Below the pieces are notes generated by a model. That model worked only from the letters and a program-made list of their open reading frames with translations. It did no database searches and had not been told where the DNA came from. Positions 10,869 to 22,086 of a stretch of DNA of 64,000 bases are shown piece after piece. Position 1 is the stretch's first letter. Each line of letters starts with the position of its first letter. The DNA comes from Nissabacter sp. SGAir0207. Its GTDB lineage: Bacteria; Pseudomonadota; Gammaproteobacteria; Enterobacterales; Enterobacteriaceae. The translations under genes and the position numbers were made by a program. Location: the NCBI RefSeq assembly GCF_005491205.1, contig NZ_CP028040.1:9039-73038 (forward strand). The letters are read 5' to 3'.

Positions 10869-11809
10869 ATGAAACTTGCACTCTGTACCGATGTTCTGGC
10901 CGATTTACCCTTTCCGGCCATGTTGGATAAAGTAAAAAGCTATGGCATCACCGGGGTGGAGATGACCGCTGGGGGGTGGTCGCCCTGCCCGCACGTCGAT
11001 ACCGAAGCCCTGCTGTCATCGCCCGAGAAGCTGGCGCAGTTCCAACAGGCATTGTCACAGCGTGAGATGCGCATTGTCGCGCTCAACTGCTCCGGCAACC
11101 CGTTGGCTCCCGGCGAGCTGGGCGAGCGGCATACCAAGAGCAGTTACCGCGCGGTCGAATTGGCGGGCAAACTGGGCGTCAAAAAGATCGTGATGATGAG
11201 CGGCCTGCCGGGCGGCGGCCCGGAGGATCGCGTCCCCAACTGGATCACCTCGACCATCTCCTGGCCGGACTATATGCCGGGGGTGATTGCGTACCAGTGG
11301 GACGATGTGGCAATCCCTTGGTGGAAAAAATTTGTCCAGCACGCCAAACAGCATGGCGTTGAGCAGATTGCGCTGGAGGCGTTCCCCTGCCAGCTGGTTT
11401 ATAACGCCTCAACCCTGTTGCGTTTGCGCAATGCGGTGGATGAGATGATAGGCATCAACCTTGATCCCTCGCACCTGATTGCCATGGGCGCTGACCCGAT
11501 TGCCGCCGTGCGCAAGCTGGAGGGGCGGTGTTCCATGTGCATGGTAAAGATGCGCGCATTGAGCGCGGTCTGGCGGACATTGATGGCCTGCTGGAGTACC
11601 AGCCGGTGACGAACACCAAAACCCGCACCTGGAACTATGTAGCGGTAGGGTGCGGCCAGGATCTCAAGTGGTGGAAAGAGTTTTTCTCGGTACTGCGCAT
11701 GACCGGATATAACGGCGATGTCTCACTGGAGATGGAGGATTTGACCATGAGCGTGGAAGCCGGTCTGCACACCTCCATTGAGGCCCTGAACGCCAGCATC
11801 AGCCGATAA
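10869..11809 (+). pseudogene. Sugar phosphate isomerase/epimerase, xylose-isomerase-like TIM barrel (one-base frameshift)
   Basis: Starts MKLALCTDVLADLPF, with AAAGGATC upstream. The first frame covers a TIM-barrel fold with AVELAGKLGVKKIVMMSG, IALEAFPCQLVY and INLDPSHL, metal-binding positions of this family. After KLEG the frame changes, and the second frame resumes exactly at AVFHVHGKDARIERGL, continuing to the stop at 11809. Adding one G to the run at 11522-11525 restores a single protein of about 313 residues. A sequencing undercall or a real null mutation are both possible. Expected to act after the dehydrogenase in sugar/polyol catabolism. Confidence 0.85.
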
Positions 11810-12277: not shown

Positions 12278-12747
12278 TCAGGTGTTGCCTGACTGCTTGT
12301 AGATATCCGGCCGGGCAATCTGCCAGACAGTGTTCTCAAGGTTGACAGGCTGGTAGCCAAACTTCTGGTATAACCAGGGGGCGGTGGTGGTGACCAGCAT
12401 GATTTTGCGCAGACGGGCCATCAACGGATGGGCCTGGCAGCAACTGACCAACCAACGCCCCATCCCCTGCTGCTGGTACTCTTCCAGCACGTAGACGTCA
12501 CACAGATAACCAAAGGTGGCAAAATCCGTCGCCAGACGGGCAAAACCAATCTGCTTACCCGCCTCAAACAAACCAAAGCTCAGGCTGTTCGACACCGCCA
12601 TGCGCACTGTTTCAATGTCGATGCCCTCCGCCCAGCTTGAGCGGGTGAGGTAAGCATGGATGGCCGGAATATCAAGCTGTGCGATATCCGTCGTGACGCT
12701 AAAAGCGCCTTGTTGCCATGAAATAGGGGGTGTGCGGTGGTCATCAT
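12278..12747 (-). pseudogene. GNAT-family N-acetyltransferase (frameshift near the N-terminus)
   Basis: The visible C-terminal frame (start usually called at 12607) carries the GNAT core: LCDVYVLEEYQQQGMGRWL for the acetyl-CoA loop and APWLYQKFGYQPV near the end. The frame stays open further upstream, coding WQQGAFSVTTDIAQLDIPAI and LTRSSWAEGI, typical of this small family. It has no start codon unless one C is added to the run at 12726-12730, which joins it to ATG at 12747 or 12744. The full protein would be about 155 residues. Substrate unknown. Confidence 0.75.
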
Positions 12748-13264
12748 AAACCTTCAGTTAAATTAAAACTCGCCAGTCATTCTTAATAAAAGACACACTT
12801 TGCCAGCGAAGTAAATCCATCTTGAAAAAACCTCACCATATTAATGATAACTATTTTCATATAGAGAGAAGTAATGCGTCCTGTTGCAAGAACATGAGCC
12901 TCCAAAATTATGGCGCTCAGCGTAAGATAAACCTTGATAACAATGTCACGGCGTAACATTATTTAGCACGGTGACTAATTCTGCTCTAATATTACCCGAA
13001 CCGTATTTATCCTCAAATAAATATAAGAAAATAATATCCCTTTGCGAAAACGCCAAAAGTAAAACTTATCGCAGGAGAAGCCGCTATATTTCAACCAATA
13101 AACAGATCAAACAAACCGCACACCAACGATATATCCCGCTTATTCTCTGGCATTAAAACAAATCAAAGGGCAGCGCTCTCTTTATTAAAAAAAGCATTGT
13201 GAAAATGAGCAGGTTATTTTAGCTTAACCCCATAAAGACTAGACCTTAAATCTCGTCTTTATCG
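12748..13264. other. AT-rich intergenic region before the peptide gene
   Basis: About 500 AT-rich bases between the divergent acetyltransferase and the peptide operon. A 61-codon GTG frame at 12971-13156 has no ribosome binding site and low-complexity composition, so I do not call it. The region is likely to contain the promoter of the peptide/oxygenase operon. Confidence 0.45.
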
Positions 13265-13286
13265 TTCACGCAATATATTGCGTGAA
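13265..13286. promoter_or_regulatory. Perfect 22-bp palindrome, probable operator of the peptide operon
   Basis: Two perfect 11-bp arms, TTCACGCAATA and its exact complement, meet without a spacer 40 bases upstream of the peptide start. Position and symmetry fit a dimeric repressor or activator site. No regulator gene lies in the operon itself, so the cognate factor must be elsewhere. Confidence 0.6.
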
Positions 13287-13325
13287 TGCCTTTTATTCCC
13301 ATCTAACGCGTAAAGAGGATCCACC

Positions 13326-13400
13326 ATGAAACAGCAAAAGAAAAAAGTTGTTATCGTTGCAACTCATGCTCGTCCAGTATTGATGCCTGCGCATCTGTAA
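13326..13400 (+). CDS. 24-residue peptide, candidate RiPP precursor
   Basis: A tiny frame, MKQQKKKVVIVATHA followed by RPVLMPAHL and TAA. AGAGGA lies six bases before the ATG, a convincing ribosome binding site. It has a basic N-terminus, a hydrophobic middle and a C-terminal tail containing His, Arg, Pro and Met. It is followed at once by a strong hairpin and then by two PqqD-domain/haem-oxygenase-like proteins and an exporter. That order (short precursor, attenuating hairpin, modifying enzymes, transporter) is typical of ribosomally made, modified peptides. Function is inferred from context alone; a leader peptide acting in attenuation is the main alternative. Confidence 0.7.
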   Translation: MKQQKKKVVIVATHARPVLMPAHL

Positions 13401-13407
13401 TGGGATG

Positions 13408-13428
13408 AAGGCACCCACTGGGTGCCTT
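13408..13428 (+). terminator. Hairpin between peptide gene and first oxygenase-like gene
   Basis: A perfect nine-base stem, AAGGCACCC and GGGTGCCTT, around a three-base loop, followed by TATTA. It starts eight bases after the peptide stop codon. It probably acts as a partial terminator or transcript stabiliser, giving much more peptide mRNA than enzyme mRNA, as seen after many small precursor genes. Confidence 0.65.
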
Positions 13429-13446
13429 TATTACAAGGAGAATCTT

Positions 13447-14421
13447 ATGGATTATGATAACGCCAGACCACGGCTTAATTGCGAATTGACGCTGCACAAT
13501 GACATGCTCCACGCCAATAATGAGTTTGGCGAATTTAAGTTCCAGGAGTTACCGGTAGATAGCCAATCCGCCTATGATATTTTAGGTCAGATCAACGGGG
13601 AAACGACCACCCGTGAGTTGATCAATCAATGGAAAGCCAAAATAGAGCCAGAAGATTTGGTGCAACTTCTGGATGCCATGCAGGAGTTTGGCCTCGTTCT
13701 AAAAAATAATAGCGCATATATGAGCGGCAAAGCCGCCATGTTAGAGATAGAGGATGAGCAACACGCGTGGCTCCATGCCCTACTTTATAAAAATCCCCTT
13801 TGGGAAGCGCTTTCCCAACCGGCCGCCGTGCCCAAAAATGTCTATCTGGGCATGGCGATTGAAACTTACCATCTCCTGGCGCATGGCGCGGTATTTGACA
13901 GCCCAGCACTCTCATTCCAGGGTGCCAGACAAACGCGCAAAGAGATGAGTGAAGTATTCTGTGAAGAGAATGGTCACTATGAGATCTTTCTTTCCGCACT
14001 GATGGCCGAGGGTTTCACCAAAGAGGAGATCAGAAATAGCGTGCCTCTGGCTGAGACCAAAGGGTTGATTAATGCCTTGGCCTTTTGGTCAGCCAATGAT
14101 CCCCTGTTCTTCTTTAGTTGCATGGAGATCATTGAAGGCAAAGACAATGAAGTCGATACCGTGGTCAATGCCATGGAAAGGTCTGGAAAGCTCTCACCCG
14201 AATTTGTCAAAAAAATAAAGTCTCACTCATTGGTCAATATTGAAGAGGGCCATGCCAGCTTTGGCCGCCGTCTCTTGTCTGGCATTGATGTAGTGAACCC
14301 ATTTGACGTTGAGCGCGCCATTCGCCAGACCAAACTGTTTGTAGAACTCTACCACCACTTTTATCTTGCGGTGTGGGAGTACTATTCAAATGAGCACAAC
14401 CCCGTTCTGCGTACCATTTAA
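13447..14421 (+). CDS. PqqD-like domain fused to haem-oxygenase-like di-iron protein (first copy)
   Basis: A 324-residue protein starting at ATG 13447 behind AAGGAG (an upstream start at 13405 would lie inside the hairpin). Residues 1-90 look like a PqqD/RiPP-recognition winged helix (FKFQELPVDSQSAYDILGQI, then LLDAMQEFGLVL). Residues 110-320 are the helical haem-oxygenase-like fold. E139/H142 (IETYH), E173-H177 (CEENGHYE) and E267/H269 (NIEEGHASFG) fit the Glu/His pairs that bind iron in HDO-type oxidases (CADD, UndA, SznF families). It likely oxidises the 24-residue peptide or an amino acid derived from it; no characterised protein with this architecture is recalled. Confidence 0.75.
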   Translation: MDYDNARPRLNCELTLHNDMLHANNEFGEFKFQELPVDSQSAYDILGQINGETTTRELINQWKAKIEPEDLVQLLDAMQEFGLVLKNNSAYMSGKAAMLEIEDEQHAWLHALLYKNPLWEALSQPAAVPKNVYLGMAIETYHLLAHGAVFDSPALSFQGARQTRKEMSEVFCEENGHYEIFLSALMAEGFTKEEIRNSVPLAETKGLINALAFWSANDPLFFFSCMEIIEGKDNEVDTVVNAMERSGKLSPEFVKKIKSHSLVNIEEGHASFGRRLLSGIDVVNPFDVERAIRQTKLFVELYHHFYLAVWEYYSNEHNPVLRTI

Positions 14422-14432
14422 GGGAGGCGGCA

Positions 14433-15433
14433 ATGTTTTTTACTAACCCAAAATTAAGAAAAGAGATCAAGGTTGAGTGCGACAATACCACCTTTCACCT
14501 GTTTTACCGCGAACAGGGCTGCCGTTTGAGCGTCGAGAAGGACGATCTTCATGAAGTTACGCGCTTAATAAATTGCCTATCTGACCGCGATGCCGCGTTG
14601 GCAGATATCTCCCCGGCAATCGTGAACATTGACGTTGAGGAGATTATCTCAACGCTCGATAAGTTGGGCCTGTTGGAAGAGGGAAGCGAAAGCCTGCCTG
14701 CGCCTTCGGGTGTATTGAGCGGGGAAGATTTTTACTATAGCCGTTTATTGCCGACGGCCACCAAATGGCAATCAACCTTTGGCACTTCCCCCTCTATGAA
14801 CGTCTGGTCACGGGTGCCATTACCAAGGGTGAAATTATTGGCTTTGCCATCGAGTACTATCACCTGGTCAAAATGTCTGCCGCCATCGTCTCCTCATCCT
14901 TGAGCCACAACGTTTCGCCGGCCGTCAGAAAAGAGCTGACCAAACTCTTTATCGAAGAGTATAACCACGACGAGATGATGGCCGAGTGCCTGTCTGCGGT
15001 AGGGATACCCGAAAGCGAACTGCTCAAAAGAAATCCGCTGCCCGCCACGTTCTCCGCCAATGCCAGCCTGGCGGTCTATGCCCGGCAACATCCGTTAAGT
15101 TTTTATAGCTCCCTTTTCCTGTTTGAAACGCCCTCCCATGAGTTCAACGCGGCACTATTGCAAGCCTGTAAGGATAAGGGCCTGCCGGAGAAATTTTACA
15201 AACCGATCCTGAAGCACTCGGATATCAATGAAGATGGCGATCACGATTTAATTACCCTCAACCTGCTCAAAGAGACGCCCGCCATCTCCGCGGAGGAGCA
15301 GCACACCATTTTGGTCAATGTCTGTAATATCATTGAATTACTGCATAAAGAGGACAGGCAAATTGTGGCGCACTATGCCGACAGCGATGTGCCAGCGTCG
15401 AGCTTGTCATACTCTGGCCTGGAAGCCTATTAA
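14433..15433 (+). pseudogene. PqqD-like domain fused to haem-oxygenase-like di-iron protein (second copy, one-base frameshift)
   Basis: Starts at ATG 14433 behind AGGGAGGCG, eleven bases after the first copy. The N-terminal frame is again PqqD-like (CRLSVEKDDLHEVTRLINCL, then LDKLGLLEE). It runs to GEDFYYSR, then the frame changes; adding one T to the TTT at 14744-14746 continues as FIADGHQMAINLWHFPLYER. The haem-oxygenase-like part has IEYYH, FIEEYNHDEMMAECL and NEDGDHDL, matching the metal-binding positions of the first copy. The rebuilt length is about 333 residues. Two related but diverged copies suggest a heterodimer or two successive oxidations. Confidence 0.75.
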
Positions 15434-15435
15434 GC

Positions 15436-16632
15436 ATGATTGCGTCTATTAAACCGACGAACTTACCCGCTGGTTCGGCGTTGCTGCCCCTGTTCGTTAC
15501 CCACTGGCTGGAGCGACTGCTCTTTCTGTCGGTGAGCATTGTCTGGCCATTGAAGTTGGTGGTACAGGGCCATCTCACTACGCCGCAGGCGGGCCTCTTT
15601 TACTTTATCCTCTTTAGCCTGTTTAGAGCCTCCCCGATTCTCTACGCTTATCTGGCAAAAACCGTCGCCCGTGAAAAGATTTTTCTCTGTGGCGCGGTAA
15701 TTGAGTCTTGCGCTTTTTTGGGGATGATATTCATCCAATCCCCGCTGTTGCTTATGGCATTGGCAATATTCGCTGGCATCGGGGGAGGCGCCACCTCCTC
15801 CATGTTGCTCTCTTTTTTGGAGGAGGTGGATAAAAGGGCCGTTTCCTCAGGCACCACAAAAAGCAGCCATCAGGTGTTCAATACCCATCTGTTATTGATC
15901 AATCTTGCGGCGGTAATTGCGCCCTTGTTAGCCATCCTGGCTCCTGCCCACTATATCGCCTCCATCATGGTGCTCTTTGCGGCGTTTCTCTTTAGCGCGC
16001 GCCATATCTTCCGGCTCACCGCTGGCTTTGATAGGGGAAGTGAGGTTGAGGAGAGAAAGGAGCGCGCCATTGACGGTAAATTCTTATCGGAGTGGCTTGC
16101 CTGCCTGTCCGTTTGGGCCGGGTGCTCGGTGGTATACGCGATTCTGCCGTCACTCGACGCCCATTTTCTGGCTACGGAGGGCGTCAATTTCTGGCTCTCC
16201 TTCGATGCGATTATCGTGACGTTGCTCTTTTTTGCCATGAAGAGATATGACCTGTTCAGCGAAAATACGCCGACCAATGCGTTGAAAGGGCTGGCTGCCA
16301 TCTTCATCGCCCTGCTTATCTTCTACAGTGGCACCCGCTATTTTCCACTGCTGGTGGTCGCCATCTCGCTGCTCTCTTTTGGCGGTTATGTGGCATTTGG
16401 GCAACTGTATGGTTTGGCGATGGCTACGCATTTCCCTGCGCGAAAAACGTTCTACCTCTCGCTGCTCTCTATGTCCGGTGCCATTGGGGAAGGAGGAGTA
16501 CAGGGCCTGTTTTGGCTGACAGGCAGTACACAGCTCACCCTTTTCATCGTGTTGCTGCTGGTGGTGGCTGGCATGTGCCCGCTACTCCTGCTGCTCCTGA
16601 AAGGCTATAAGACCCGCCCCGTGAAGCCCTGA
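15436..16632 (+). CDS. MFS transporter of the peptide/oxygenase operon
   Basis: A 398-residue protein with about twelve hydrophobic helices and almost no polar loops. It begins two bases after the stop of the second oxygenase-like gene, so it is translationally coupled to it. The sequence is weakly MFS-like (FHWLERLL-type start, GGGATSSMLLSFLEEVDKRAV between helices 4 and 5) without a substrate signature. From its position it most likely exports, or possibly takes back, the modified product of the operon. Confidence 0.75.
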   Translation: MIASIKPTNLPAGSALLPLFVTHWLERLLFLSVSIVWPLKLVVQGHLTTPQAGLFYFILFSLFRASPILYAYLAKTVAREKIFLCGAVIESCAFLGMIFIQSPLLLMALAIFAGIGGGATSSMLLSFLEEVDKRAVSSGTTKSSHQVFNTHLLLINLAAVIAPLLAILAPAHYIASIMVLFAAFLFSARHIFRLTAGFDRGSEVEERKERAIDGKFLSEWLACLSVWAGCSVVYAILPSLDAHFLATEGVNFWLSFDAIIVTLLFFAMKRYDLFSENTPTNALKGLAAIFIALLIFYSGTRYFPLLVVAISLLSFGGYVAFGQLYGLAMATHFPARKTFYLSLLSMSGAIGEGGVQGLFWLTGSTQLTLFIVLLLVVAGMCPLLLLLLKGYKTRPVKP

Positions 16633-16833: not shown

Positions 16834-17817
16834 ATGCTCTCTCCCCGCGTAATGAATACCTCCTTTGCCGTGCTGTGCTGCGTAGGGCTGCTGCCGGCAA
16901 CCTTTGCCGTGTCGGCGGCGGACACGGCGGGCATTAAAATGGGCGTCGAGCCTTGGCTGGGGTATGGCCAGTGGCATATCGCCGCCAGCCAAAAGTTGTT
17001 TGCACAGCAGGGGCTAAAGCAGGTGGAGGTGATCAACTTTGCCGAAGACAAAGACATCAACGCTGCGCTGGCGAGCGGGCAGATTGACGCGGCCAATATC
17101 GCCACCCACACCGCCATCGGCATGATCTCGGCGGGTCTGCCGGTCAAAATCGTCCTGATGCTCGATCAGAGCAATACCGCTGACGCCATGCTCGGCAGCA
17201 AGGAGATCGCCAGCCTGAAGGATTTGAAGGGCAAGCAGGTCGCCTATGAGGAGGGCACCACCAGCGACATCCTGTTGCGCAGCGCGCTGGCCTCGGCGGG
17301 CCTGACCTATGCCGACATCCAACCGGTGCCAATGCCCGCCGCCTCGGCAGGCAGCGCAATCATTGCCGGGCGGGTGCCGGTAGCGGTCACCTATGAGCCT
17401 TACCTCACTGCCGCCAAACAGGGCGACGCTGGCCTGAAGATGCTCTACAGCGGTGCCTCCGATCCCGGCCTGATCAGTGACGTGCTGGTGGTGCGGGAGG
17501 AGTTCATCGCGCAGCACCCGGAGGGCATCAAGGCGCTGATCAAAACCTGGAACAGCGCGCTGGATTACTACCGGGCGAATACCCAAGAAGGGCGCGCCAT
17601 CATCGCCAAGGCGGTCGGCGCGTCGCCAGCGGAACTGGATAGCGCCTTCGACGGCGTGCACTACTACTCCCTGGCAGATAACAAAACGCTGCTCTCCCAT
17701 GACTTCACCGAGAAAACCTTCCCCCACCTGCTGAAGGCGGCCACCGAGGCGGGCATCGTCAGCCAGCCGGTGACGCCGCAACAGACCATCGACGCCAGCT
17801 TTGTTAACGGCCTGTAG
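16834..17817 (+). CDS. ABC transporter substrate-binding protein, NitT/TauT family
   Basis: A 327-residue periplasmic binding protein with a signal peptide (hydrophobic stretch about residues 8-28, likely cut after VSA). KMGVEPWLGYGQWHIAASQ and SLKDLKGKQVAYEEGTTSD are typical of the TauA/SsuA-like family. AGAAGGACACC precedes the ATG. Because the operon continues into histidinol-dehydrogenase-like and hut genes and has a HutC box, the ligand is probably an imidazole compound (histidine, histidinol, imidazole-lactate or urocanate) rather than a sulfonate. Confidence 0.88.
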   Translation: MLSPRVMNTSFAVLCCVGLLPATFAVSAADTAGIKMGVEPWLGYGQWHIAASQKLFAQQGLKQVEVINFAEDKDINAALASGQIDAANIATHTAIGMISAGLPVKIVLMLDQSNTADAMLGSKEIASLKDLKGKQVAYEEGTTSDILLRSALASAGLTYADIQPVPMPAASAGSAIIAGRVPVAVTYEPYLTAAKQGDAGLKMLYSGASDPGLISDVLVVREEFIAQHPEGIKALIKTWNSALDYYRANTQEGRAIIAKAVGASPAELDSAFDGVHYYSLADNKTLLSHDFTEKTFPHLLKAATEAGIVSQPVTPQQTIDASFVNGL

Positions 17818-17847
17818 TGGCGGGGCGCCAGCCTATTCGGAGGATAT

Positions 17848-18693
17848 ATGAGTTCGCTTGAACTGCAGAGTGTGAACCCGCGGGCCAAAAAGCGCCGTCG
17901 GCGCCATGACCTGCTGACCATCGGGAAGACGCCCAGCCGGGCGCAGTTCCTGACCCTCTCCATCGCGGTGTTCGCCCTGCTGCTGCTGGCCTGGTGGCTG
18001 GCGACGGCCAGCGGCGCCATCAAACCCCTCTTCCTGCCGGGCATTGAGCGGGTCTGGCACCAGATGGTGACGCTGGCGGCCAACGGCACGCTGCTCAATG
18101 ACCTTGAGAGCAGCCTGTATCGCATGGCGATTGCGTTTGCCATTTCGTCGGTGATGTCGATTGTCATCGGCGTGCTGGCCGGCTGCTACGGGCTGGTCAA
18201 GGCCATCGTGGAGCCGCTGGTTGATTTTATCCGCTACATGCCGGTGGTGGCCTTCGTGCCGCTGACCATCCTGTGGACCGGCACGGATGACATCCAAAAA
18301 TTCCTGGTGATCTGGATTGGCACCTTCTTCCAACAGGTGCTGATGATGATCGATGCGGTGAAGCGCGTGCCGCCGGATTTCATCGGGCTGGGCCGCACCC
18401 TCGGCTTGCCAGACCGCAAGATTTTGCTGCGCATCGTCATCCCCTCCGCCCTGCCGGCGATCTGGGACGCGCTGCGCATCAGCCTTGGCTGGGCGTGGAC
18501 CTGGCTGGTGCTGGCGGAACTGGTCGCCTCCACCTCCGGGCTGGGCTACCGCATCGTGGTCTCCCAGCGCTACTTCCAGACCGACACCATTATCGGCTAC
18601 ATCCTGCTGCTGGGCCTGCTCGGGCTTATCACTGACCAGATCATGCGCGCCGCCGAGCGCGTGCTGTTCCGCTACAACCGGAGGCGCAGCTGA
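17848..18693 (+). CDS. ABC transporter permease, NitT/TauT family
   Basis: A 281-residue inner-membrane permease with six or seven hydrophobic spans. The EAA loop contains LGLPDRKILLRIVIPSALPA, which docks to the ATPase. It follows the binding protein gene by 30 bases and ends on the A of the ATPase start (ATGATGG region), so the three subunits are coupled. Confidence 0.92.
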   Translation: MSSLELQSVNPRAKKRRRRHDLLTIGKTPSRAQFLTLSIAVFALLLLAWWLATASGAIKPLFLPGIERVWHQMVTLAANGTLLNDLESSLYRMAIAFAISSVMSIVIGVLAGCYGLVKAIVEPLVDFIRYMPVVAFVPLTILWTGTDDIQKFLVIWIGTFFQQVLMMIDAVKRVPPDFIGLGRTLGLPDRKILLRIVIPSALPAIWDALRISLGWAWTWLVLAELVASTSGLGYRIVVSQRYFQTDTIIGYILLLGLLGLITDQIMRAAERVLFRYNRRRS

Positions 18694-19454
18694 TGGCGAC
18701 CCTGACAATCAACAAGCTGGAGAAGAGTTTCCCCTCAGGCGCGACCCGTCACCGGGTACTGCGCGGCATCGACCTGACGCTGAATGACAATGAGTTCGTC
18801 TCAATCGTCGGCACCTCCGGCTGCGGCAAAAGTACCCTGCTGTCGATTGCCGCGGGGCTGGAGGAGTTCGACGAGGGCGAAGTGCTGGTCGATGGCGAGC
18901 CTATCCAGGGGGCCGGGCTGGATCGCGGCGTGGTGTTCCAGTCCTATACCCTGCTGCCGTGGCTGACGGCGCGCGGCAACATCGAATTTGCCCTGAAAGC
19001 GGCGGGCACCCCCGCCAACCAGTGCCGCGAGATCGCCCAGCAGCATCTGGAACTGGTGAAGCTTGGCCACGCCGCCGATCGCTGGCCCAGCGAGCTATCT
19101 GGCGGCATGAAGCAGCGGGTGGCCATTGCCCGCGCGCTCTCCTACCGGCCAAAAATCCTGCTGATGGATGAGCCGTTCGGCGCCCTCGACGCCATGACGC
19201 GCCACCAGATGCAGCAGTTGCTGATTGAGATCTGGGAGACGCACCGGCTGACGGTGATGTTCGTCACCCATGACATTGAAGAGGCGGTCTGGCTCTCCGA
19301 TCGCATTGTGGTGATGGGGCCGGGTCATATCGACTCGACGTTCGACGTCGGCCTGCCGCGCCCGCGCCATCAGAACATCCAGCGCGTCCCGGCGTTCATG
19401 GAACTCCAGCAGGACGTGCTCAACCGCATCCACCAACACACCCTGGCCCACTGA
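18693..19454 (+). CDS. ABC transporter ATP-binding protein, NitT/TauT family
   Basis: A 253-residue ATPase. Walker A GTSGCGKSTLL is near residue 43, the signature is LSGGMKQRVAIARAL, Walker B is ILLMDEPFGALD, and the switch histidine is in VMFVTHDIEEAV. It energises the importer formed with the two preceding genes; the operon continues 16 bases later with the HisD-like gene. Confidence 0.93.
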   Translation: MATLTINKLEKSFPSGATRHRVLRGIDLTLNDNEFVSIVGTSGCGKSTLLSIAAGLEEFDEGEVLVDGEPIQGAGLDRGVVFQSYTLLPWLTARGNIEFALKAAGTPANQCREIAQQHLELVKLGHAADRWPSELSGGMKQRVAIARALSYRPKILLMDEPFGALDAMTRHQMQQLLIEIWETHRLTVMFVTHDIEEAVWLSDRIVVMGPGHIDSTFDVGLPRPRHQNIQRVPAFMELQQDVLNRIHQHTLAH

Positions 19455-19469
19455 AAATAAGGAACCCGT

Positions 19470-20798
19470 ATGTCTGTCTCATTCCACGATCTGTCGGCCT
19501 CGGCGCAGTTGCCGGCGGCGCTGTTCACCCGCACCGAGTCCGATCTCTCTTTCTTCGCTGGCAAGGTGCAACCGATCATTGAGGCGGTGCGCGAAGAGGG
19601 CGACCGGGCGCTGATCCGCTTTGGCCGCGAGTTTGACGGCGTCCAGCCGGACACTTTCCCGCTGCGCGCGCAGGAGCACGAGTTTGACCAGGCGTTCCAG
19701 CGGCTGGCGCCGGAGGTGATTGAGGCGATCCGCTATGCGGTGGAGAACGTGCGGGCCTTCCATGAGGCGCAGAAGCCCGAGGAGATGTGGTGGAAGGAGA
19801 TGCGGCCGGGCGCGTTTGCCGGCGATCGGCATGTGCCGATTGATGCGGTGGCCTGCTATGTGCCGCGCGGCAAAGGCTCCTTCCCCAGCGTCTTGATCAT
19901 GACCACCGTGCCCGCCGTGGTTGCCGGGGTGCCGCGCGCGGTGGTGATCACGCCGCCCGGCCCGGATGGCACGGTGGATGACGCAACGCTGGTGGCCGCG
20001 CGGCTGGTCGGCATCACGGAGGTCTACAAGTGCGGCGGCGCGCAGGGCGTGGCAGCGGTGGCCTACGGCACCGAGAGCGTGCCGAAGTGCCTGAAAATCG
20101 TCGGCCCCGGCAGCCCGTGGGTGGTGGCGGCGAAGCGCCAGCTCTCCCACCTGATCGATCCGGGCGTGCCAGCTGGCCCCAGCGAAAGTCTGATCCTGGC
20201 GGATGACTCCGTGAGCGGCGCGCTGGCGGCGCTGGATCTGCTGATTGAGTCCGAGCATGGGCCAGACTCCTCCGCCTATCTGGTCACCTCGAGCCGCCGG
20301 GTGGCGGAGGAGGCGATGGCAGCACTGCCCGGCTACTGGGCGCAGATTGGCGAGAAGCGCGCCCGCTTCTCCCAGCAGGTGCTGGGTGGCCAGCACGGCG
20401 GCGTGGTGCTGACCAAGGATTTCGCCACCGCCGTGGCATTCGTCAACCAATATGCGCCGGAGCACCTCGAGATCCTCGCCGAGGAGCCGATGGCAGTGAT
20501 GCCCCAGATCCGCAACGCCGGTGAAATCCTGCTCGGCCCACATACGCCGATTGCGCTCGGCAACTTTGTGCTGGGGCCAAACGCGGTGCTGCCGACCAAC
20601 GGTGCCGCCAAAACGGCCGGGCCGCTCTCGGTGTTCGACTATATGAAACGCATCTCCGTCGGCTACGTTACCCGCGCTGGCTATCAGGAACTGGCGACGC
20701 AGGCGAAGCGGCTGGCGGAGTATGAGGGCTTCCCCGGCCATGCCCTGGCGGTCTCCGGGTTGCGGCACGCGCTGCTGAAGGAGGGCCACCATGAGTGA
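19470..20798 (+). CDS. hisD: Histidinol dehydrogenase-like enzyme (catabolic HisD paralogue)
   Basis: A 442-residue full-length member of the HisD family: AVACYVPRGKGSFPSVLIM, KCGGAQGVAAVAYGTE, GPAGPSESLILAD, QYAPEHLEI and the C-terminal GFPGHALAVSGLR. HisD oxidises L-histidinol to L-histidine using two NAD. Position in a hut island, not a his operon, argues for a catabolic role. Oddity: the zinc-ligand segment reads IESEHGPDS where biosynthetic HisD has a Gln at the first ligand position, so a related alcohol (as for the HisD-like HpsN dehydrogenases) is possible. Confidence 0.85.
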   Translation: MSVSFHDLSASAQLPAALFTRTESDLSFFAGKVQPIIEAVREEGDRALIRFGREFDGVQPDTFPLRAQEHEFDQAFQRLAPEVIEAIRYAVENVRAFHEAQKPEEMWWKEMRPGAFAGDRHVPIDAVACYVPRGKGSFPSVLIMTTVPAVVAGVPRAVVITPPGPDGTVDDATLVAARLVGITEVYKCGGAQGVAAVAYGTESVPKCLKIVGPGSPWVVAAKRQLSHLIDPGVPAGPSESLILADDSVSGALAALDLLIESEHGPDSSAYLVTSSRRVAEEAMAALPGYWAQIGEKRARFSQQVLGGQHGGVVLTKDFATAVAFVNQYAPEHLEILAEEPMAVMPQIRNAGEILLGPHTPIALGNFVLGPNAVLPTNGAAKTAGPLSVFDYMKRISVGYVTRAGYQELATQAKRLAEYEGFPGHALAVSGLRHALLKEGHHE

Positions 20799-22086
20799 GC
20801 AACCGCGCGCGCCGCTGGCCGCGGAGGCGCGGCGGCTGACGCAGCAGGGGGAGTGGGCGCAAGCCAGCGAGAAGCTGGGCCAGCTGATCGCCGAGGTGAC
20901 CGGCGTGGCGGTGAGCGGCCTGCACATCAACCGCGACCAGTACAGCCTCAACTCCCTGAATGGCCGCGTGTCGCTCGCCGACCAACGCACGCTCTTTTTC
21001 AAATATCACCACGAGGAGGGCGAGGAGCAGACCATCGGCGAGTACTACCGCGCCGGGCTGCTGCGCCGCCACGGTTTCCGGGTGGATGTGCCGCTCTACG
21101 CCTGCGGTGAGCCGGGCCGCCAGATCCTGCTCTACGCCCTACGGGATGAGCGGCGGCTGGCCGATGTCTGTTATGACCTGGAGTCCCGTGAGGCGTGGCC
21201 CGCGATGGCGGAGGTGGTGGAGGCGCAGTGCCGCGCGGACGCGGAGATCCTGGCGCACACCCTGCCGACGCTGCGGCAGGCCAGCGCCAGCGAGGTGGCG
21301 GCGGAGTCGATCCACCAGCTGTTCTGGCACCGGTTGGTTTCGCCGGGGCAGCCAGCCGGGCTGGGCGGCCGGGTGGCGCGTTTTTACGTGGGCCAGCCCT
21401 TCCCGTTGGGCGACCTCACCCTGCCGTGGCAGACGCTGAGCACGCTGCGCTGGCGCATCAACGGCGTGATGTACCCCGACACCCTGCAACAGCTCTTCCT
21501 CGCCGCGGGCCAGCATCTGGCCCCTTCTGCGCTGGCCGGGCATGGCGTGGTGGTGGCGCACGGCGACGCCCACAACGCCAATGTCTGGTATGCCACGCAG
21601 GCGGGGCAGCCGCAGCTGGTCAGCTTCGACCCGGCCTTCGCTGGCAGCCATATCCCCGCGCTGCTGGCGGAGATCAAGGCCACGTTCCATAACATCTTCA
21701 CGCACCCCTGCTGGCTCTATGAGCCGCATCAGGCGGTAGAGCGTTACCGGGTCACGGTGACGCGTGAGGGCGACGTGCTGGACGTCCGGCATGACTGGCA
21801 CCTGACCCCGCTGCGCGCGGCGTTCCTGCACAGCAAGGGGGAGCGCTACTGGCGGCCGCTGCTGGCGGAACTGCGTGGCCGGGGCTGGTTGCCCGACAAC
21901 TGGCAACAGATTATGCGTCTGGCGCTGTTTTGCTGCCCGACGCTGGTGATGAATCTGCGCGCAGGCGCGTCCAGCGCCCACAACCCCACCAGCTCCGCGT
22001 TGGGGCTGGCGATGGCCGTGATGCTGGGCAGCCGAGGCGAGGATGATTTTTCCCGCTGGCTGGACAGCCTGCTGACTGAGGAGTGA
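20791..22086 (+). CDS. APH-fold phosphotransferase (small-molecule kinase)
   Basis: A 431-residue protein with aminoglycoside-phosphotransferase-type kinase motifs: VVAHGDAHNANVW is the catalytic loop (Asp and Asn) and LVSFDPAFAG the metal-binding Asp. The N-terminal lobe has FFKYHH as the nucleotide-binding lysine strand. It overlaps the HisD-like gene by eight bases. The family includes choline, homoserine and methylthioribose kinases, so the fold does not give a substrate. Context suggests a hydroxylated imidazole compound. Confidence 0.7.
   Translation: MSEQPRAPLAAEARRLTQQGEWAQASEKLGQLIAEVTGVAVSGLHINRDQYSLNSLNGRVSLADQRTLFFKYHHEEGEEQTIGEYYRAGLLRRHGFRVDVPLYACGEPGRQILLYALRDERRLADVCYDLESREAWPAMAEVVEAQCRADAEILAHTLPTLRQASASEVAAESIHQLFWHRLVSPGQPAGLGGRVARFYVGQPFPLGDLTLPWQTLSTLRWRINGVMYPDTLQQLFLAAGQHLAPSALAGHGVVVAHGDAHNANVWYATQAGQPQLVSFDPAFAGSHIPALLAEIKATFHNIFTHPCWLYEPHQAVERYRVTVTREGDVLDVRHDWHLTPLRAAFLHSKGERYWRPLLAELRGRGWLPDNWQQIMRLALFCCPTLVMNLRAGASSAHNPTSSALGLAMAVMLGSRGEDDFSRWLDSLLTEE

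Follow-up and report, generated by a model that had tools for sequence, protein, structure and literature searches.

A 64,000-nucleotide stretch of Nissabacter sp. SGAir0207 (contig NZ_CP028040.1), hereafter the window, carries at 12278–16632 a compact gene cluster that probably directs the biosynthesis of a ribosomally synthesized and post-translationally modified peptide (RiPP) of an undescribed family, judging from sequence comparison. In order, it comprises a gene for a GNAT acetyltransferase (reverse strand), a 24-codon open reading frame (ORF), a stable hairpin, two genes for paralogous proteins of the same domain plan (HDO1 and HDO2), in which an N-terminal domain precedes a haem-oxygenase-like di-iron oxygenase (HDO) domain, and a gene for a major facilitator superfamily (MFS) transporter. 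A preceding sequence-only reading had described a peptide gene, a hairpin, two successive fusions of a PqqD-like domain to an HDO domain, and an MFS gene starting two bases beyond the second fusion. The peptide, the hairpin, an intact first fusion and the MFS gene (ATG at 15436, two bases past the HDO2 stop) are all present; the second fusion has a broken reading frame in this assembly, and the divergent GNAT gene, a further member of the cluster, had been missed. The RiPP interpretation is carried by the conservation of the peptide and by the match of HDO1 to PqqD, although the Pfam PqqD model matches none of the members scanned.

A conserved precursor peptide

The product of the small ORF is a short, Lys-rich peptide with a KKVVIVA stretch and an end of the form P-x-L-x-x-x-H-L-COOH, containing neither Tyr nor Glu, and the good ribosome binding site ascribed to its gene is indeed found 6 nt before the ATG. 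A scan of GTDB genomes with the HDO1 alignment returned at least 38 related loci, a lower bound from two sequence patterns, and in 37 of these a small ORF ending in P-x-L-x-x-x-H-L lies just upstream of HDO1. Of the 9,610 ORFs (12 aa or longer) counted in the 38 loci, 37 have this ending, one in each of 37 loci, always upstream of HDO1 and on the same strand; a chance ORF was set aside on this count. As the motif had been derived from these loci, new ones were fetched as a test, and the peptide was present in 12 of 12, three from 398 Pseudomonas genomes, eight from 144 Paraburkholderia genomes and one from 295 genomes of the family (L057–L059, L070, L071, L072, L075, L076, L078, L079, L081 and L122). 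Loci from the genus searches that repeated earlier ones were marked as duplicates and excluded from this count; all six matches in 250 Sphingomonas genomes were such repeats. Homologous operons that regularly lack the peptide, which would have spoken against the RiPP interpretation, were thus not what these searches found.

Across 42 tabulated peptides (the window, the 37 GTDB loci, L053, L055, L057 and L058, two of them fresh; L045, L054 and later loci are omitted), the final His-Leu is invariant, with His encoded by CAT in 10 and CAC in 32, and Leu by five different codons. Such synonymous variation indicates conservation of the protein rather than the DNA and adds weight to the C-terminal part being its functional end. 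Position -9 is Arg in 35 peptides, Thr in five and His in two, and since Arg is variable here it is less likely than His and Leu to be the modified residue. On this pattern of conservation, the peptide is a real gene. No second copy was found elsewhere at E < 0.001 in 21 genomes.

Longer versions also exist. A search with the 62-aa precursor of L034 gave 30 relatives (P0039–P0068) with predicted lengths of 57–95 aa, all ending in HL except P0068 (RTLIAIPL). The long precursors (L034, L040 and P0039–P0068) have a common leader, approximately FDGxKxDLYINTxxLGGKHFLVxV, that is missing from the short ones and provides a ready profile for mining.

The peptide data also bear on a different reading, in which the small ORF would be a regulatory leader peptide, the hairpin its attenuator, and the HDO proteins enzymes for a small substrate such as a free amino acid. 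A strong hairpin does directly follow the ORF in the window, and stable folds occur in the same place at related loci (no shuffle control). Conservation at the protein level with synonymous codons, the long precursors with their HL end (29 of 30), and the PqqD-like domains on the enzymes all argue against a leader peptide, as does the fact that an order of precursor, hairpin and enzyme is common in RiPP operons; we regard this reading as very improbable.

PqqD-like domain, fold and metal site of the fusion proteins

The HDO1 ORF matches PF14518 (E 1.1e-8), in agreement with the HDO-like domain proposed from sequence alone. AlphaFold models of HDO1 of the window and of HDO2 of a relative, L016 (mean predicted local distance difference test scores of 91.0 and 88.1), both have N-terminal strands and three helices followed by a bundle with the haem-oxygenase-like helical fold of the HDO superfamily. 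The bundles match the solved folds 3dde, CADD, HrmI, FlcD, UndA and PqqC, with true haem oxygenases lower; the fold-search lists, obtained with whole models, are filled by matches to the HDO-like domain.

In the HDO1 model the N-terminus folds as three strands then three helices (bbb-aaa), the topology of a RiPP recognition element (RRE), and the HDO2 model has the same topology plus one extra short strand in front. Comparison of profiles with hhalign gave a match of HDO1 to PqqD over 44 columns (probability 95, P 4e-8), while six controls gave P values of 0.02–0.48, and neither the C-terminal domains nor a reversed PqqD matched. For HDO1, the claimed structural resemblance to PqqD is therefore borne out by both profile and topology. 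By sequence and model, HDO1 would carry an RRE, HDO2 would do so less clearly, and HDO3, the third fusion of longer clusters, would not; the N-terminus of HDO3 matches those of HDO1 and HDO2 and not PqqD directly. Not every RiPP class has an RRE.

Two alignments, of 29 HDO1 (A2) and 22 HDO2 sequences (A3) picked from those available to avoid near-duplicates, were used to examine the metal site. Among PDB sequences, the HDO1 profile best matches MboA of mangotoxin biosynthesis (E 1.1e-6). MboA ligands named in the available part of its description (PMC13185094) are E86, H89, E143, H172, D176 and H181 (the PDB chain is numbered 25 higher), and the aligned positions in HDO1 are E174, H177, E230, H260, N264 and H269. 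The same six positions are invariant in all 22 HDO2 sequences, so the conserved Glu/His positions noted earlier hold for both fusions as an MboA-type set with Asn replacing Asp (H-x3-N-x4-H). An extra ligand of MboA, Asp90, is Asp in the HDO1 sequences of A2 except those of the window type (Y, G, C, F or A). Among the 29, only that of a remnant cluster (L022) lacks H177. This locus of Photorhabdus luminescens DSM 3368 (L022:7875-10041) looks like a decaying copy: the peptide, HDO1 and HDO2 are kept, Tyr replaces one metal His of HDO1, and the ATP-grasp gene is only a remnant.

Distribution and cluster types

Related loci were found in Enterobacterales, Photorhabdus, Pseudomonas, Vibrio, Chromobacterium, Burkholderia, Paraburkholderia, Sphingomonas, Pedobacter and a metagenome-assembled genome of Legionellales, so that genes of this pathway type occur in distantly related bacteria. 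Searching the fetched flanks with eight reference proteins (tblastn) distinguished four cluster types. Type A (peptide, HDO1, HDO2 and MFS) includes the window, which also has the GNAT gene, and L014, L015 and L016, without a GNAT match; Rhodococcus L055 is also of this type, with annotated MFS and GNAT. Type B has the peptide, HDO1-3, a class III aminotransferase, an ATP-grasp protein, MFS and GNAT, and is represented by Photorhabdus L017, C. californicus L018/L052, and Pseudomonas L019–L021 and L024. Type C (peptide, HDO1-3 and aminotransferase, some with GNAT) occurs in Chromobacterium, Paraburkholderia, Burkholderia, Legionellales L028 and Robbsia L053, with an EamA transporter identified in L026 and L053. 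Type D has HDO1-3 only and was found in Sphingomonas, Burkholderia stagnalis and Paraburkholderia atlantica, and in Pedobacter, there with no peptide.

The cluster is accessory: two of four Chimaeribacter genomes carry it, one as type A and one as type B, and HDO2 is present in four of 295 family genomes (the window, G002, G1113, which is L016, and G1078, the only fresh one). Plasmid-borne relatives of the window's cluster gave no match by DNA. By protein, six plasmid records have an HDO1 match, and three were inspected. The peptide ends RPVLIPVHL in Robbsia (L053) and RTIVAVAVHL in Rhodococcus gordoniae (L055), both of which keep at least the final His-Leu. In Tistrella (L054), a locus that enters none of the counts, a 60-aa candidate ORF with the end KPVLIAVHL lies some 2 kb upstream of the HDO1 match.

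The GNAT protein of the window is 68% identical to the one ending the Photorhabdus cluster L017 (tblastn). PF13508 matches at 12278–12607 (E 2.9e-12), and the frame is open to about 12757, with the first listed in-frame start at 12607; a role in self-protection is likely. The MFS protein matches PF07690 (E 6.8e-8; 32.2 bits, just under the curated cut-off of 33.4), is 46% identical to the MFS protein in the same place in L014 (tblastn), and is likely the exporter.

Comparison with described pathways

The closest precedents are VarO of thiovarsolin and MboA of mangotoxin. According to the available part of the thiovarsolin report, the cluster of Streptomyces varsoviensis includes varA, the HDO gene varO, the ATP-grasp gene varL and the MFS gene varP, and a varO mutant yields a product missing the side-chain double bond (PMC6511847). 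As described there, a ribosomal precursor, an HDO and an MFS gene are shared with the window's cluster, and further likenesses are an ATP-grasp gene, the lack of a specific protease and N-acetylated products. It differs in forming a thioamide by YcaO/TfuA, in having repeated cores inside the precursor, in acting on Arg, and in having a single haem-oxygenase-like gene, for which that part of the report mentions no RRE fusion; its MFS and ATP-grasp genes are dispensable (PMC6511847). No YcaO-TfuA pair is present among the window's cluster genes, which sets the cluster apart from thiovarsolin-type RiPPs.

The substrate of MboA is a tripeptide, on whose C-terminal residue the enzyme acts with the carboxylate bound to iron, as stated in the available text (PMC13185094). 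It resembles HDO1 in sequence and aligned ligand positions, and differs, as far as that text goes, in its non-ribosomal substrate, a tripeptide made by ATP-grasp ligases, and in a dedicated reductase, MboB. Its PDB chain, of 250 residues, has no counterpart of the N-terminal domain and has Asp where the present family has Asn.

Pyrroloquinoline quinone (PQQ) biosynthesis likewise combines a PqqD-like domain with an oxidase of haem-oxygenase-like fold (PqqC), and its precursor, PqqA, is similar in length to the peptide here. In the natural PqqCD fusion of Methylobacterium, whose structure is solved, the PqqD part is C-terminal, whereas the PqqD-like domain here is N-terminal, and the peptides differ. 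The PQQ pathway relies on the radical SAM enzyme PqqE, and Glu and Tyr are conserved in its precursor; no radical SAM gene is found among the cluster genes at 12278–16632, and the peptide has neither residue. A conversion of the peptide into a PQQ-like redox cofactor or metal chelator, and not an antimetabolite, would suit the combination of a precursor of 24 aa, PqqD-like domains and a PqqC fold, as well as the PqqC structures among the fold matches. We consider it improbable in view of the missing radical SAM gene, the accessory distribution (HDO2 in so few family genomes) and the transporter or GNAT gene in many clusters.

A further parallel is the cluster for 4-formylaminooxyvinylglycine (FVG), where, in the available part of the report, gvgB is a Lys-rich small ORF, gvgC a haem-oxygenase-like gene and gvgH a class III aminotransferase gene (PMC8067088). 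The longer clusters found here share this combination. Compared by gene description, the FVG cluster differs in its carbamoyl- and formyltransferase genes, esterase-like gene and LysE exporters, and only one haem-oxygenase-like gene is described; gvgF (carbamoyltransferase) and gvgI (formyltransferase) are both absent from the window's cluster.

This pairing of gvgB with gvgC (PMC8067088, same part) lends some weight to a carrier role, in which an amino acid would be ligated to the C-terminal carboxylate of the peptide, oxidised by the HDO proteins and cut off; the invariant free C-terminus, and the ATP-grasp gene of type B clusters, which is ligase-like in L052, would fit as well. TglA is described, in the material available on it, as the scaffold peptide of 3-thiaglutamate. 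That pathway uses a LanB-like tRNA-dependent ligase, which is absent among the window's cluster genes, and the amino-group carrier protein is a comparable carrier precedent. No type B ATP-grasp match was found in the fetched flanks of the window, L014–L016 and Sphingomonas-type loci (other ligases were not sought), and Rhodococcus L055 has no annotated ATP-grasp gene beside its cluster; we regard a carrier as unlikely.

The sequence-only reading took a pathway with two PqqD-HDO fusions acting on so short a peptide to be undescribed. Term searches of the open-licence literature (supplements excluded) gave no paper on RRE-HDO fusions or this peptide, a restriction that makes the absence weak evidence. 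The available part of a 2025 RRE survey (PMC12710340) has no mention of heme oxygenase, HDO or PF14518, its sole 'haem' being in a reference title on MNIO enzymes, and a term search of the available part of the 2020 RRE-Finder paper was without match. For an HDO in a RiPP pathway (VarO) or acting on a peptide C-terminus (MboA) there is precedent, which tempers any claim that the system lacks a parallel.

Proposed pathway

The features that favour a RiPP-type cluster are an encoded precursor conserved beside the enzymes (37 of 38 and 12 of 12 loci, with the codon pattern described) and the PqqD-like domain of HDO1. More specifically, and at rather less than even confidence, we propose a new RiPP class that extends across Gammaproteobacteria, Betaproteobacteria, Alphaproteobacteria and Actinomycetota. 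Its members would use two or three paralogous RRE-HDO fusions, with the unusual H-x3-N-x4-H site, to oxidise the invariant C-terminal His-Leu of a peptide of 24 to about 60 residues and give a small released antimetabolite; in many of them a dedicated acetyltransferase would provide immunity. For the RiPP-type cluster that we consider probable, the mechanism is modelled on MboA (carboxylate on iron) and VarO (the haem-oxygenase-like protein of a RiPP cluster). The KKVVIVA part of the peptide, its N-terminal strand, would be bound by the PqqD-like domains. The C-terminal Leu or His-Leu would reach into the HDO active site and bind iron through its carboxylate, in the way MboA takes the C-terminal residue of its substrate. 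HDO1 and HDO2 may then oxidise this end in succession, by desaturation, hydroxylation or C-C cleavage. A peptidase of the host would liberate the product, a modified amino acid or small modified peptide, for export by the MFS protein, and GNAT could acetylate its free amine, leaving the producer unharmed. The third fusion, class III aminotransferase and, in some, ATP-grasp ligase of longer clusters might elaborate the product further.

Several observations weigh against the RiPP-type reading. PF05402, the Pfam PqqD family, matches none of 29 HDO1 or 22 HDO2 members, the hhalign match of HDO2 to PqqD is weaker (probability 56.5, P 1.1e-4), and that of HDO3 is no better than the controls (probability 3.4, P 0.013). 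The best PDB sequence match of HDO2 is CADD (CT610; E 3.2e-6), with MboA at only 0.011, and MboA is absent among the 50 matches listed in either HDO1 fold search. Asn occupies the position of MboA Asp176 in 39 of 39 HDO1, 38 of 38 HDO2 and 32 of 33 HDO3 sequences (L052 dropped as a duplicate of L018; L023, on a short contig, left out for HDO2; L022 and L023 left out for HDO3), so that a standard di-iron site cannot be taken for granted, and with five of six ligands as in MboA the family is not filed in the 3-His/3-carboxylate subtype (MboA, UndA, AetD, HrmI and PolF). Pedobacter L045, the one miss among the 38 loci, has no peptide, and its HDO1 is without the N-terminal domain. Besides the window, only 13 of the 38 loci gave a GNAT match (some loci stop at a contig edge), and the window's cluster shows no protease gene. 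Whether VarO acts on the precursor or after proteolysis is left open by its authors, in the part of their report available (PMC6511847). Finally, HDO2 itself is split in the window between two frames, with the break at about 14774–14789.

An intact public HDO2 protein (P0011, 333 aa) is 96% identical to the N part and 99% identical to the C part. An unrelated sugar-phosphate isomerase-like gene some 3 kb upstream (about 10869–11806) is also frame-broken, at about 11522. Two genomes of the same genus, G001 and G002, have it intact (313 aa), a difference that points to indel errors in the present assembly or strain. Given this second broken gene and the near-identical intact P0011, an assembly error or strain-level change seems the likelier cause of the HDO2 break, and cluster decay was set aside. 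An HDO2 of Rosenbergiella epipactidis (P0012) is 87% identical to the C part, and all other matches apart from P0011 are at most 65% identical, a pattern that hints at horizontal transfer.

The Asp-to-Asn change kept in three paralogues poses a direct question for metal biochemistry. With its own leader-binding domain, the system would offer a genetically encoded, easily varied substrate for studying this chemistry, and the minimal cluster (peptide, two enzymes and transporter) is small enough to be rebuilt in E. coli.

Locus features and neighbouring genes

Table 1. Features of the cluster (window coordinates).
Feature	Position	Strand	Basis
GNAT acetyltransferase	12278..12757	-	tblastn to L017 GNAT; PF13508
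Upstream hairpin with T-rich tail, possible attenuator	13263..13288	+	scan, near-chance count
Ribosome binding site of peptide gene, AAAGAGGA	13312..13319	+	sequence
Precursor peptide, 24 aa, MKQQKKKVVIVATHARPVLMPAHL	13326..13400	+	ORF and conservation
12-pair hairpin between peptide and HDO1	13405..13431	+	folding, z -4.85
HDO1, 324 aa, PqqD-like domain (residues 1-~90) and HDO-like domain	13447..14421	+	PF14518, profiles, model
HDO2 N part (PqqD-like domain and start of HDO-like domain), first frame	14433..14903	+	
HDO2 C part (most of HDO-like domain), other frame	14765..15433	+	
MFS transporter, 398 aa	15436..16632	+	PF07690; tblastn to L014 MFS

The hairpin between the peptide and HDO1, first put at nine bases, is present and has 12 pairs in the fold (-21.3 kcal/mol for 49 nt folded; none of 200 shuffles as stable). 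It may be terminator-like or an attenuator, setting the peptide in excess over the enzymes. At each of the 42 tabulated loci the 70 nt that follow the peptide stop also fold well (no shuffle controls on these). For hairpins with a T-rich tail, such as the one upstream of the peptide gene, seven sites were found against 5.1 expected (standard deviation 2.6), which is weak on its own, and a promoter scan found seven against 5.2 expected.

Downstream, an apparently separate operon at 16834–22086 encodes a substrate-binding protein, an ABC permease and ATPase of the sulfonate/nitrate type, and histidinol-dehydrogenase-like and phosphotransferase-like proteins (all named by eye from ORFs). As DNA, the right flank (16834–18700) gave only 40–50-base matches to three same-genus genomes, in two of the three. 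Elsewhere in the genome there is an ordinary PqqD (G000:C1:348926-349117, L106) and a further PF14518 protein above the family cut-off (G000:C1:1275962-1276333).

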